Shown here piece after piece: positions 39,723-43,852 of a stretch of DNA of 64,000 nt; the stretch's first letter is position 1; each line of letters starts with the position of its first letter. The translations under genes were made by a program, and so were the position numbers. The stretch spans positions 2,232,001-2,296,000 of the forward strand of contig NZ_CP011412.1 of the NCBI RefSeq assembly GCF_001007875.1, in the 5' to 3' direction. The notes under the pieces were generated by a model. That model was not told the origin of the DNA and ran no database searches. It was given only the letters and a program-made list of their open reading frames with translations. The DNA comes from Sedimenticola thiotaurini (GTDB lineage Bacteria; Pseudomonadota; Gammaproteobacteria; Chromatiales; Chromatiaceae).

Positions 39723-40190
39723 ATGTCCACTATCAGAATTATAAAAAAGTACCCCAACCGCCGCCTCTACGATACGGAGCTGAGTCGCTATATCACCCTG
39801 ACCGATATTCGGGAACTGGTCATGAGTGGAACGGATTTCCAGGTAGTCGACACCAACACAAACGAAGATCTCACCCGCTCCATTCTACTGCAGATCATGC
39901 TAGATGAAGAGTCGGGCGGCGAACCGCTGTTCAGCGCCAAGATGCTCTCCCAGATCATCCGGTTTTATGGCGGCACCGTGCAGGGCATCCTGGCCCGCTA
40001 CCTGGAAGAGAGTCTGTCCATGTTCGTACAGCAGCAGGAACAGCTCAACAACAGCGTCGGCAGTGACCCGGTAACAGCCATCACCAACATGGCCGAACAG
40101 AATATGCGCATGTGGGCCGATATGCAGAAGAACTTCTTCAAGGCTGCCGGTCTGGCCAGTGCCGGAAAAAGAAAAAAAGAAGAAGAGTAG
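39723..40190 (+). CDS. phaR: PHA accumulation regulator PhaR
   Basis: Regulator of 155 residues with the PHB/PHA accumulation DNA-binding domain at the N-terminus: IIKKYPNRRLYDTELSRYITLTDIRELV, followed by the accumulation-regulatory region (SILLQIMLDEESGGEPLFSAKMLSQIIRFYGG). A helical tail ends in GKRKKEEE. Members of the family repress phasin genes and are released by binding to nascent PHA. It lies just upstream of phaP, whose promoter carries paired repeats. Confidence 0.93.
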   Translation: MSTIRIIKKYPNRRLYDTELSRYITLTDIRELVMSGTDFQVVDTNTNEDLTRSILLQIMLDEESGGEPLFSAKMLSQIIRFYGGTVQGILARYLEESLSMFVQQQEQLNNSVGSDPVTAITNMAEQNMRMWADMQKNFFKAAGLASAGKRKKEEE

Positions 40191-40339: not shown

Positions 40340-40354
40340 GCATCGCAATATTGT

Positions 40355-40366
40355 TGCAACGCACAA
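40355..40366. promoter_or_regulatory. Putative PhaR site 2 downstream of the phaP -10
   Basis: TGCAACGCACAA, second copy, located about +10 from the predicted transcription start and 17 bases before the phaP ATG. Binding here would block transcription or early elongation. Confidence 0.6.
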
Positions 40367-40383
40367 CTTCTGGAGAGCGCGCA

Positions 40384-40761
40384 ATGAAAGACCCGAAAGC
40401 AAATCTGGAACTGTTTAAAGAGTTCGGCATAAACGGTTACGAAAGCATGCGCTCCCTGGCAGAAATCAACCTGCGCACCTGGGAACAACTGCTTGAAAAA
40501 CAGATGAATGCCTTCGGCCTGTTGGTGGACACCGGTATCGAGCAGCTTTCAGTCAGCAGCAAGACCAGCGATCCCAAAGAGCTGCTCTCCAGCCAGATCG
40601 CCCTGAGCAAGACCTTTGGTGAGAGCCTGGCAGGCTCCAGTCGCGACGCCGTCAATCTGGCAACCCAGGCCAGCAACGAGTATCGCAGCTGGCTGGAAAG
40701 CGGCATCAGCACCTTCAACAGCAAGGTAAAAGCGGCTGCTGACGAGGTGATGAAGTCCTGA
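40384..40761 (+). CDS. phaP: Phasin family protein
   Basis: Small granule-coat protein of 125 residues, almost wholly amphipathic helix (EFGINGYESMRSLAEINLRTWEQLLEKQMNAF...), matching the phasin family. Phasins cover PHA granules and set their number and size. ATG 40384 follows CTGGAGAG; the open frame back to 40351 crosses the putative operator and is rejected. Its promoter and operators are unusually clear. Confidence 0.88.
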   Translation: MKDPKANLELFKEFGINGYESMRSLAEINLRTWEQLLEKQMNAFGLLVDTGIEQLSVSSKTSDPKELLSSQIALSKTFGESLAGSSRDAVNLATQASNEYRSWLESGISTFNSKVKAAADEVMKS

Positions 40762-40867: not shown

Positions 40868-40895
40868 GCCCGGCTCCCCGCCGGGCATTTTTTTT
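40868..40895 (+). terminator. Terminator after phaP
   Basis: GCCCGGC (40868-40874) and GCCGGGC (40880-40886) form a seven-base GC stem with a TCCCC loop, followed by A and eight T residues. It is a clear intrinsic terminator, about 105 bases after the phaP stop. The rest of the 375-base gap to dsrA holds the elements listed next. Confidence 0.85.
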
Positions 40896-41004: not shown

Positions 41005-41029
41005 AATACCTAGTGGTTTACTTGGTATT
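41005..41029. promoter_or_regulatory. Palindromic operator candidate upstream of dsrA
   Basis: AATACC-T-AGT (41005-41014), a five-base centre GGTTT, and ACT-T-GGTATT (41020-41029) make an inverted repeat with nine of ten arm pairs matched. It overlaps the -35 of the candidate dsrA promoter. The cognate regulator is unknown; TTGGTAT-type half sites are seen with some GntR-family regulators, which is only a hint. Confidence 0.55.
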
Positions 41030-41044
41030 AGTTTGATCTATCAT
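41017..41044 (+). promoter_or_regulatory. Candidate dsrA promoter
   Basis: TTTACT (41017-41022), a 16-base spacer, then TATCAT (41039-41044), predicting a start near 41051 and an 85-base leader. A perfect TTGACA at 41061 lacks a good partner at normal spacing (AAGACA after 17 bases). The palindrome covers the first candidate's -35. Confidence 0.4.
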
Positions 41045-41136: not shown

Positions 41137-42387
41137 ATGACAAAACCAATGCATGATACCCCGATGCTGGATCAGCTGGAGGGGGGGCCTTGGCCGAGTT
41201 TTGTAACCGGACTCAAGCGATTAGCCAAAGACAACGACATGATGGTTGACTTGCTGGGCCAGCTTGAGACTTCCTATGAAACCCGCAAGGGTTACTGGAA
41301 AGGCGGCACAGTGGGCGTCATCGGGTATGGCGGCGGCATTATTCCCCGCTTTACCGAACTGAAAGACGAGAACAACAAGCCGATGTTCCCGGCCGCCGCC
41401 GAATTTCACACACTGCGTGTCATTCCACCACCCGGAATGCACTACGACACCAAGACCATTCGCCACCTGTGCGACATCTGGGAGAAATACGGTTCCGGCC
41501 TGATCGCTTTCCATGGCCAGTCCGGGGATATCATGTTCCAGGGCTGTACCACGGAAAATGTGCAGAAGGCGTTTGACGAGATCAACAAGGCCGGCTTCGA
41601 CCTGGGCGGCGCCGGACCGGCTGTCCGCACCGGCATGTCCTGTGTTGGCGCTGCCCGCTGTGAACAGTCCTGCTATGACGAAGCGCGGGCCATGCGTACC
41701 TGCGTCAACGCCAACCTGGATGACATGCACCGTCCCGCCCTGCCCTACAAGCTCAAGTTCAAGGCTTCCGGCTGTGCCAACGACTGCATGAACTCGATCC
41801 AGCGGGCAGACGTGGCCATGATCGGTACCTGGCGGGATGACATGAAGGTGGACCAGGATGAGGTCAAGGCGTTTGTGGCCAGAAAAGGCCGCAAGTACAC
41901 CATTGACAACGTGATCACCCGCTGTCCCACCCAGGCACTGTCGCTGAACGATGACGACACCCTGAGCGTGGATAACCACAACTGTGTACGCTGCATGCAC
42001 TGCATCAACGTCATGACCAAGGCGCTCTCACCCGGCGATGACCGGGGCGTCTCCATCCTGGTGGGTGGCAAGCGTACCCTGAAGATCGGTGACCTGATGG
42101 GAACCGTGGTGGTGCCGTTCCACAAACTGGAAACGGACGAGGATTACGAATGGCTGGAAGAGTTGAGCACCACAATCCTCGATTTCTTTGCCGAGAACGC
42201 CCTGGAGCATGAACGCACCGGCGAGATGATCGAGCGCATCGGTCTGATCAACTTCCTGGAAGGCATCGGCCTGGAGATCGAACCCGAAATGATCTCCCAG
42301 CCGCGTACCAATCCCTATGTCCGTACAGACGACTGGGATGAGCAGGCTGCCAAATGGAACGAGCGCAAAGCGGGAACAACCCACTAG
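41137..42387 (+). CDS. dsrA: Dissimilatory (reverse-type) sulfite reductase, alpha subunit, orphan copy
   Basis: Full-length DsrA of 416 residues. In sulfur oxidisers DsrAB converts sulfane sulfur carried by DsrC to sulfite in the cytoplasm. Siroheme-cluster cysteines are C169-x5-C175 (CVGAARC) and C213-x3-C217 (CANDC). The inserted ferredoxin domain has C263 (TRCPTQAL) and C283, C286, C289 (CVRCMHC). HGQSGDIMFQGC and GGAGPAVRTGMSC resemble the oxidative lineage. ATG 41137 follows GGGAGGA. No dsrB or other dsr gene adjoins it: a hairpin follows at once, then unrelated minus-strand genes. No frameshift or key-residue loss is seen, so it is an apparently intact but unpartnered subunit. Confidence 0.93.
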   Translation: MTKPMHDTPMLDQLEGGPWPSFVTGLKRLAKDNDMMVDLLGQLETSYETRKGYWKGGTVGVIGYGGGIIPRFTELKDENNKPMFPAAAEFHTLRVIPPPGMHYDTKTIRHLCDIWEKYGSGLIAFHGQSGDIMFQGCTTENVQKAFDEINKAGFDLGGAGPAVRTGMSCVGAARCEQSCYDEARAMRTCVNANLDDMHRPALPYKLKFKASGCANDCMNSIQRADVAMIGTWRDDMKVDQDEVKAFVARKGRKYTIDNVITRCPTQALSLNDDDTLSVDNHNCVRCMHCINVMTKALSPGDDRGVSILVGGKRTLKIGDLMGTVVVPFHKLETDEDYEWLEELSTTILDFFAENALEHERTGEMIERIGLINFLEGIGLEIEPEMISQPRTNPYVRTDDWDEQAAKWNERKAGTTH

Positions 42388-42394
42388 TGCCACT

Positions 42395-42425
42395 GCCGGT
42401 ACCCGGCCCCGTGCCGGGTATCGGC
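42395..42425 (+). terminator. Hairpin directly after dsrA
   Basis: GCCGGTACCCGGC (42395-42407) pairs with GCCGGGTATCGGC (42413-42425) over 13 bases with one G-T pair and a five-base loop, beginning eight bases after the dsrA stop. The downstream tract CCATTCCC is not T-rich. A stem this strong suggests the dsrA message ends here and is monocistronic. Confidence 0.6.
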
Positions 42426-42447: not shown

Positions 42448-42918
42448 CTACTGCCGGGATGCCGACGACGACAGATGCAGTGTTTCGCCGTCGATATGGG
42501 CAATCAACAGCATCAGAAACTTGAACAGGTACTGCAGGCGGGCGCGCACGTTTACCGAGCCCGCATCCAGATCGAGCTTTTTCAGCACCGCAATCCGTTC
42601 ATAGGCCTTGTGAATCAGCTGTTCGGTCGACCAGTCGTGGTATTTCTCAAACTCCCTGATCCCACCGTAGGTGCGTCTTGCAAGGCGCCGTTTCTGGATG
42701 GCGTTGAGCGCCGTCCCCTTTTCAGTGGCCTGGCGATATTGCGCCTGCTCCAGCCCCGCAACAATGGTCGTACCGGGAAGCTGCTCCGCCAGTCCCGCCC
42801 GCAGAAAGGCCAGGTTGTGGCGCAGCTCCAGCACCAGCAGGTTTTTTGAACAGCGCCGCTCCCTGTGCCGTGCATACTCTTTGTCAAAGATTAGATAGAG
42901 ATCCTGGATGATGCTCAC
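42448..42918 (-). CDS. Hypothetical protein
   Basis: Unrecognised protein of 156 residues starting at GTG 42918. It is basic and helical with no signal peptide or membrane segment: RHRERRCSKNLLVLELRHNLAFLRAGLAEQL at the N-terminus, KRRLARRTYGGIREFEKYHDW in the middle, and a Ser-rich end (LSSSASRQ). A single Cys lies at about residue 23. Coding on this strand is supported by its position 28 bases upstream of ubiA in the same direction and by a GGGAG upstream. No function is proposed. Confidence 0.55.
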   Translation of the reverse strand: MSIIQDLYLIFDKEYARHRERRCSKNLLVLELRHNLAFLRAGLAEQLPGTTIVAGLEQAQYRQATEKGTALNAIQKRRLARRTYGGIREFEKYHDWSTEQLIHKAYERIAVLKKLDLDAGSVNVRARLQYLFKFLMLLIAHIDGETLHLSSSASRQ

Positions 42919-42946: not shown

Positions 42947-43852
42947 TCATGCCAGCAGGTAGTCCAGCAGCAGACCGAAAAAGATCACCATGCCAACATT
43001 GTTATTGTTCAGAAAGGCGGTAAAACAGGCGGCCGGCTCACGCTCCCGGATGAGCACCTGCTGCCACACAAACAGCGCCCCGGCGATGACCAGCCCCAGG
43101 TAGTAGGGGATCCCCAGACCGACCTCCATGCCCACCACCACCAGCAGCGCCAGCATCACCAGCTGCAGCAGACCGATAATCAGCCGATCCTGTCGTCCGA
43201 ACAGGATGGCGGTGGATTTCACCCCGATCACCAGATCATCATCCCGATCCACCATGGCGTACTCGGTATCGTAGATCAGCGCCCAGATGATGGCCGACAG
43301 ATAGAGCAGCCAGCCGACCATGGGAACCGTGCCCAGCAGCGCCATGTAGGCCATGGGAACCGCCCAGCCGAACGCCATGCCGAGCACCAGCTGGGGCATG
43401 TGGGAGTAACGTTTCATAAAGGGATAGAGCGACGCCAGCAGCAGGGCAACCACCGACATCATGACCGTCTCCCGGTTGAGCAGCAACACCAGACCGAACG
43501 ACACCAGGCAGAGCAGCACGAAGATCCAGAGCGCCTCTTTGGGTGACACCACACCGGTCGCCAGGGGCCGGTTACAGGTCCGTTTCACCCGGCCATCGAT
43601 GTTTCGGTCGGCATAGTCATTGATGGCACAACCGGCGGAACGCATCAGCCCGACGCCCAGGATGAAGATCACTACCACGCCCCAGCGGGGCTCTCCGGAA
43701 CCGGCCATCCAGAGCGCCCAGAGCGCCGGCCACAGCAGCAGCAGGATGCCGATCGGTTTATCCAGCCGGATCAGCCGGATATATCCATCCAGTTGTTGGC
43801 GCAGGGTACGGGATGCCGTACCGCTTTTGACATCAGATTCCGAATAACTCAT
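42947..43852 (-). CDS. ubiA: 4-hydroxybenzoate polyprenyltransferase
   Basis: Integral membrane prenyltransferase of 301 residues in ubiquinone synthesis. Two Asp-rich motifs bind the Mg-polyprenyl diphosphate: [15 protein letters not shown] near residue 80 and [19 protein letters not shown] near residue 200. About eight or nine hydrophobic helices are visible. It overlaps ubiC by four bases (ATGA), so the first two committed steps are co-translated. Confidence 0.94.

Follow-up and report, generated by a model that had tools for sequence, protein, structure and literature searches.

The window, a stretch of 64,000 nucleotides of the Sedimenticola thiotaurini chromosome, carries a second dsrA gene, which we call dsrA2, and from its sequence context it probably encodes a separately promoted alternative alpha subunit that works with the DsrB of the canonical dsr operon. 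DsrAB is generally regarded as a unit of two genes that must occur together. In the mechanism proposed here, dsrA2 would be an old duplicate of the operon dsrA, driven by its own promoter and yielding a further functional DsrA; this protein may pair with DsrB from the operon to form an alternative alpha2beta2 or a mixed-alpha reverse sulfite reductase. The separate promoter would alter the supply or the kind of alpha subunit under some condition, and cells could make two alpha forms of rDsrAB. We infer the pairing from the single dsrB in the genome, the retention of all cofactor cysteines, and the few fixed changes in DsrA2.

Below, G-numbers are genomes (G000 is the genome of the window), L-numbers are loci, and C-numbers are contigs; A1 denotes the operon dsrA and A2 denotes dsrA2. 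The genus sample comprises nine genomes (G000 to G008), in which the named Sedimenticola members include S. selenatireducens DSM 17993 and BK-1 as well as S. hydrogenitrophicus. The features of the locus are as follows.

39723 to 40190, plus strand: phaR, PHA synthesis repressor, upstream landmark (NCBIfam and Pfam scans, synteny)
40351 to 40761, plus strand: phasin, upstream landmark (above the Pfam Phasin_2 cutoff, below that of the NCBIfam phasin model; synteny)
40868 to 40886, plus strand: intrinsic-terminator-like site between phasin and dsrA2, setting dsrA2 apart from the PHA genes (scan)
41005 to 41029, no strand: 25-bp near-perfect palindrome AATACCTAGTGGTTTACTTGGTATT, its core aligning across the genus
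41008 to 41022, plus strand: dsrA2 upstream motif ACCNAGTGKTTTWCT, 129 bp before the ATG (129 to 175 bp in relatives)
41017 to 41044, plus strand: sigma-70-like promoter TTTACT-16-TATCAT, with the -35 overlapping the palindrome and the -10 at 41039 to 41044
41137 to 42387, plus strand: dsrA2, 416-aa oxidative-type DsrA without adjacent dsrB (ORF, family models, genus conservation)
42395 to 42425, plus strand: hairpin with a 13-bp stem, 3' of the dsrA2 stop (folding)
42448 to 42918, minus strand: 156-aa ORF, matched in three of the nine genus genomes (G000, G003, G005)
42947 to 43852, minus strand: ubiA, downstream landmark convergent with dsrA2 (synteny; name assumed)

The window gene and the dsr operon

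The dsrA2 reading frame is free of internal stops, and GGGAGGAG sits a short way 5' of its ATG at 41137. Its product scores 549.6 bits against the NCBIfam model TIGR02064 (dsrA), above the curated equivalog cutoff of 392.85, and matches the Pfam families NIR_SIR and NIR_SIR_ferr; among solved DsrA chains matched by sequence, 3mm5_A covers nearly its whole length (residues 5 to 398, E 2e-106). Two four-cysteine motifs hold the eight cluster cysteines (C169, C175, C213, C217 and C263, C283, C286, C289), each of them kept in 35 of 35 aligned full-length DsrAs, and the motifs FHTLR, AVRT, and YKLKFK, which we take to carry sulfite-binding residues in solved DsrAB, are all found. In trees without reductive-type DsrA, DsrA2 groups with the operon DsrA of genomes having dsrEFH-like operon genes, that is, with oxidative-type rDsrA. 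A pseudogene was ruled out by the intact frame together with the low omega described below.

On the 5' side of dsrA2 lie phaC, phaE, a thiolase gene, phaR, and phasin, and on the 3' side, on the minus strand, the 156-aa ORF, ubiA, ubiC, and recG. The names phaC, phaE, thiolase, ubiA, ubiC, and recG are assumed (that of ubiA also comes from an earlier sequence-only reading of this DNA); the family-library scans of the neighbors covered phaR, phasin, and the 156-aa ORF, the last of which had no match in Pfam or NCBIfam. No dsrB or other dsr gene adjoins dsrA2 in the window flanks, nor is a dsrB adjacent at the dsrA2 loci of the genus. The sequence-only reading had described just this, an intact dsrA with all its cluster cysteines, no dsr neighbor, and a hypothetical gene and ubiA next on the other strand, and it holds in each of these respects. 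Its strong terminal hairpin is also real (-27.1 kcal/mol, z -3.99, equaled by 0 of 200 shuffles) but has no T run, and it is possibly a 3' end or a barrier toward the convergent genes.

A genome search for a dsrAB operon, which that reading had proposed as a check, found a full dsr operon on the same chromosome from C1:3738847 onward, with its own dsrA, which makes dsrA2 an additional copy. The operon dsrA and dsrB were identified by family model, and the following genes are presumably dsrE, F, H, C etc., as named from their order. The two DsrA proteins of G000 are 89.4% identical (82.8% in DNA). The sole dsrB of G000 (E 1e-60) lies in the operon at C1:3740193; with regard to an alpha2beta2 DsrAB, an adjacent dsrB is thus absent and a genome-encoded DsrB is present. 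One dsrB each was found in the six genus genomes holding both dsrA copies, while G004, G005, and G007 (completeness 65, 90, and 78) gave no dsrB match. On the upstream side of dsrAB, ten aligned genomes from inside and outside the genus share a conserved block, CCCCCCC..TT.GC.GG.TA...CTAAAATGC (about 4650 to 4715 of L004), which may comprise a dsr activator site and a -10. On the opposite strand, some 2.3 kb 5' of the operon dsrA, lies a small ORF (L004, 2232 to 2576) that by visual inspection resembles DsrC/TusE, and L081, L087, and L088 have DsrC matches in a comparable position.

There is practically no chance that a misassembly, or a recent relocation of the operon's dsrA, produced the window gene. 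The sequence-only reading had entertained relocation as one origin and had named a false contig join at 42400 as a threat to its claim. The same junction recurs in all nine genus genomes, and the G000 assembly (3,962,284 bases in all, chromosome 3,928,944 bases) can be set beside the published S. thiotaurini SIP-G1 genome, which is a closed PacBio genome at 294x with a chromosome of 3,928,944 and a plasmid of 33,340 (PMC4472907); together these exclude a contig-join error. Relocation is refuted as well, since the operon retains its own dsrA and dsrA2 is fixed at one site genus-wide, with the same landmarks in other genera.

Conservation of the site and of the upstream motif

In nine of nine genus genomes dsrA2 has the PHA genes on one side and ubiA on the other (in G005 it is split across two contigs). 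Outside the genus, both landmarks flank it in G038 and in G058, where the PHA side consists of phaR only, phasin, thiolase, phaE, and phaC being unmatched in that stretch, and both are seen, on two contigs, in G017 and G085. G072 shows the PHA side only and has a dsrA C-terminal piece about 10 kb from ubiA; G010, G047, G086, and G117 show the ubiA side only, the latter two with just the final codons. All or part of dsrA2 is therefore found beside one or both landmarks in eight genera, the genus itself and seven more. Other remains are a truncated dsrA at another place in G068 (L208, 6873 to 7525), preceded by a dsrA2-type palindrome, and a C-terminal dsrA piece 4.9 kb from ubiA in G107. With ubiA present, no dsrA2 stands beside it in G101, G116, G119, G088, G068, G133, G046, and G154, among others, and because G101 and G116 are single-contig genomes with the operon, dsrA2 is dispensable to sulfur oxidation as such.

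Contigs stop inside dsrA in G010, G017, G047, G072, G085, and G086, as would happen if the assembler merged two almost identical copies. Such copies appear to break assemblies, and if so, dsrA counts taken from MAGs would be untrustworthy.

The palindrome-bearing promoter region of the sequence-only reading was borne out: the palindrome at 41005 to 41029 has no other match in the genome at 0 to 1 mismatch, and genome-wide in G000 only one weak further site appeared (C1:886626, 3 mismatches; control matches 0). Without mismatch, ACCNAGTGKTTTWCT lies 5' of dsrA2 in all nine genus genomes and in G038, G017, G085, and G072; it has one mismatch at the G068 remnant and two in G058 and in G047, and it was not found before the G010 dsrA2. 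In a scan of 3.39 Mb, with both strands counted and repeats counted where loci overlap, 35 of 85 matches at up to two mismatches fell within 420 bp 5' of a dsrA start, and all but one of these precede dsrA2 or its remnant, the exception being the operon dsrA of G013 (L022, two mismatches). A one-mismatch match lies 449 bp before the G068 operon dsrA, beyond the 420-bp limit. In the genomes whose dsrA2 has the motif, none was found at up to two mismatches within 420 bp 5' of the available operon dsrAs, and the operon upstream region bears a different conserved block. C-runs and ATTA occur in the upstream regions of both the operon and dsrA2.

A search of G000 allowing one mismatch returned a single, perfect match, the one before dsrA2, with two chance matches for the reversed control; this count alone is not striking, so the case rests on conservation. 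The sigma-70-like promoter scan by itself likewise does no better than chance (1 found, 1.1 expected), yet relatives have the promoter at aligned positions, including a TANNAT-like -10 (TAAACT in G058). Judged by this distribution, the ACCNAGTGKTTTWCT motif overlapping the predicted -35 marks dsrA2 and not the operon.

Gene conversion and divergence between the two copies

The whole-gene tree and the 3'-part tree (nt 481 to 1245) hold 35 full-length rows hand-picked from the search matches, the 5'-part tree (nt 1 to 450) holds 39 rows, including four partial pieces padded with gaps, and a wider DsrA tree kept 43 of 93 rows. The rows G086_Ax and G072_C16n were placed in the A1 group, the locus of each being unproven, and the row labeled G119like_G169_A1 is G169. 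A single clade of all dsrA2 coding sequences is rejected by the AU test both for nt 1 to 450 (p 0.001; 13 A2 of 39 rows) and for nt 481 to 1245 (p 1.6e-7; 10 A2 of 35 rows). For G017, G085, G058, and G072, the dsrA2 gene pairs in each case with another dsrA from that genome (bootstrap 99 to 100; the partner locus in G072 is unproven), and the G038 A2 is unpaired with its own A1 in the 5'- and 3'-part trees.

The G058 copies show a sharp tract. In 120-nt windows their identity is 82 to 86% at starts from nt 0 to 360 and 93 to 99% from nt 480; silent-site identity is 0.51 before nt 489 and 0.89 after it (p 0.001, the floor of 1000 permutations), and dS is 1.37 for nt 1 to 450 versus 0.19 for nt 481 to 1080. 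G001 and G006 show a weaker pattern (dS 1.28 and 1.06 versus 0.39 and 0.31). The P values of the longest-run and breakpoint tests were 0.007 and 0.041 for G001, 0.64 and 0.004 for G006, and 0.028 and 0.17 for G038. Among the between-genome controls, one of nine pairs (G003_A1/G006_A2) also gave a breakpoint-test p of 0.044; the signals of G001, G006, and G038 are therefore only suggestive, while that of G058 is firm. No conversion tract was detected in G000 (p 0.67 and 0.30) or in G002, G003, and G008.

Within the genus the A2 rows form a clade. The DsrA tree that the sequence-only reading had suggested places this clade, for the whole gene, as sister to the genus A1 clade; with the 3' part it is weakly sister to genus A1 (91/77), and with the 5' part it falls outside genus A1. 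A possible early exchange of the 3' part, predating the split of the genus, would fit this pattern.

Given that the dsrA2 sequences are not one clade, that four of them pair within their own genomes, and that G058 has its sharp tract, gene conversion between the operon dsrA and dsrA2 is the best account. That A2 coding sequences group with the dsrA of their own lineage would also be expected if dsrA had inserted several times independently into a hotspot, the phasin-ubiA gap, rather than once long ago with later conversion. We consider this highly improbable, since the upstream motif and its spacing are common to the dsrA2 of different genera and unlike the operon upstream region, and the G058 breakpoint falls within the gene. 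A noncoding motif common to several genera, together with differing coding histories, suggests one old locus with gene conversion and not repeated insertion.

Omega is 0.012 to 0.033 in 10 A2-A2 pairs from five genus genomes and 0.017 to 0.055 for A1-A1, and these omegas are rough because dS in the comparisons is high (0.62 to 1.91); many pairs are near saturation, and some dS values are undefined (G008 and several cross-genome pairs). By this measure purifying selection on dsrA2 within the genus is strong. For the A1-A2 pair of a single genome, omega is 0.032 to 0.13 (five of six pairs defined), higher than among pairs of either copy, and the two proteins have thus diverged to some extent, a divergence that was tolerated or favored. 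Fourteen sites fully separate A1 (6 rows) from A2 (8 rows) in the genus, of which only residues 2 and 384 are invariant across all 24 A1 rows compared.

Retention of dsrA2 could be explained by dosage alone: as a spare copy biochemically the same as DsrA, it would add alpha subunit or donate conversion tracts and have no condition-specific role. The near identity of A1 and A2 in G058 (96% in amino acids) and in the first 588 nt of G017 (95% in nucleotides) speaks for this possibility. We nevertheless regard it as rather unlikely, given that the conserved promoter element of dsrA2 is not found before the operon, that A2-specific residues are fixed in the eight genus A2 rows, and that subunits in a 1:1 ratio give no obvious reason for extra alpha alone.

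Solitary dsrA genes and known systems

A class sample of 370 genomes was searched for DsrA (E 1e-100) and DsrB (E 1e-80), and the tables were compared by eye row by row. DsrA was found in 124 genomes and DsrB in 125. A solitary full-length dsrA, away from a contig end and with no dsrB beside it, occurs in five of the 124 (G000, G387, G473, G539, G553); by the same reading none of the 125 DsrB genomes has an equivalent solitary dsrB. Left out as ambiguous were G540 and G504, whose extra dsrA lies at a contig end; G479, G271, and G505, where one dsrA and one dsrB match fall on different contigs and one of the two is terminal on its contig; and G527, with a contig-terminal partial dsrA and no dsrB match. 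G388 has no DsrA match and a dsrB 281 bp from a contig end, G433 has a partial dsrB only, and the additional dsrB fragments in G533 and G422 begin at contig ends. Among 80 named loci, of which L086 and L090 end too soon for dsrB to be judged, five dsrAs have room downstream and no dsrB: four from Sedimenticola and one from a Thiobacillus MAG (L148). The solitary dsrAs have differing neighbors, each groups with the dsrA of its own lineage, and a single clade is rejected (p 6e-5). Across these surveys, dsrA-only duplication is recurrent, in five lineages counting Thiobacillus and the family of the window gene.

Duplicates of other kinds were seen as well. A second, distant dsrA (48 to 50% identity to DsrA2) is present in L067, L068, and L069 (G107, G068, and G133) and in G012 and G369, and in L067 to L069 and G369 it is followed by dsrB (55 to 58%). 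L032 (G014:C15) and other g7-code genomes have a second full dsrAB pair (DsrA 68%, DsrB 73%) beside one at 85%.

The recurrence of solitary dsrA in several lineages, with no clear solitary dsrB, and the separate promoter element of dsrA2 are also what a DsrB-independent DsrA2 would show, whether a homomeric sirohaem/[4Fe-4S] protein or one with another partner, with a role outside sulfur oxidation. We judge this improbable: working sirohaem sites in DsrAB structures require both subunits, there are few fixed differences between the copies, and repeated homogenization with the operon dsrA would keep DsrA2 compatible with DsrB. More broadly, and doubtfully, DsrA may have a second job that dispenses with DsrB or needs a different DsrA:DsrB ratio; this would explain why solitary dsrA, and in the present sample no clear solitary dsrB, has arisen in at least five lineages, and why in this family the gene has retained its neighbors and a switch of its own while conversion re-synchronizes it.

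The sequence-only reading had left three options open, a second, separately regulated alpha subunit, a homomeric protein with a new role, and recent relocation. The first is best supported, by the operon with its sole dsrB and by the conserved promoter element of dsrA2, and the last has fallen. An alternative alpha subunit partnering the operon's DsrB would raise the question of whether rDsrAB exists in exchangeable-subunit forms, and the cultured S. thiotaurini and S. selenatireducens make the idea directly testable. Sulfur cycling is tracked with dsrA as a marker gene, and where a conserved alpha gene with a separate promoter is present, dsrA counts and transcripts can overstate operon activity. 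Judging from the named loci and the accessible part of PMC11059160, the family holding dsrA2 (Sedimenticolaceae) appears to include animal symbionts.

As a kind, dsrA-only duplication is already known. In Thiobacillus denitrificans, two dsrA copies without dsrB exist in addition to a clustered dsrAB elsewhere, as stated in the accessible part of Loy et al. 2009 (PMC2702494), citing Beller et al. 2006, and the premise of the sequence-only reading that dsrA and dsrB are always adjacent was accordingly too strong. Within the accessible open-licence literature, the dsrA2 of Sedimenticola, its conserved site, dedicated promoter, and conversion were not found.

The T. denitrificans copies resemble dsrA2 in having no adjoining dsrB, with a stated DsrA identity of 78 to 83%, but a conserved site, motif, or conversion is not described for them in the accessible part of PMC2702494. 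The Thiobacillus case also differs in its independent origin, the solitary dsrA of the MAG lying at a different site and pairing with the other (partial) copy of its own genome. The second dsrAB sets of Chlorobaculum tepidum and Magnetococcales, as far as the available sources describe them, likewise give more than one dsrA per genome; they duplicate dsrA and dsrB jointly, whereas Sedimenticola duplicates dsrA alone. With the oxidative-type DsrA of the gammaproteobacterial rDsrAB operon (TIGR02064), DsrA2 shares family, length, cluster cysteines, and 89% amino acid identity to the G000 operon copy, and it differs in standing without neighboring dsrB or other dsr genes and in having its own promoter element.
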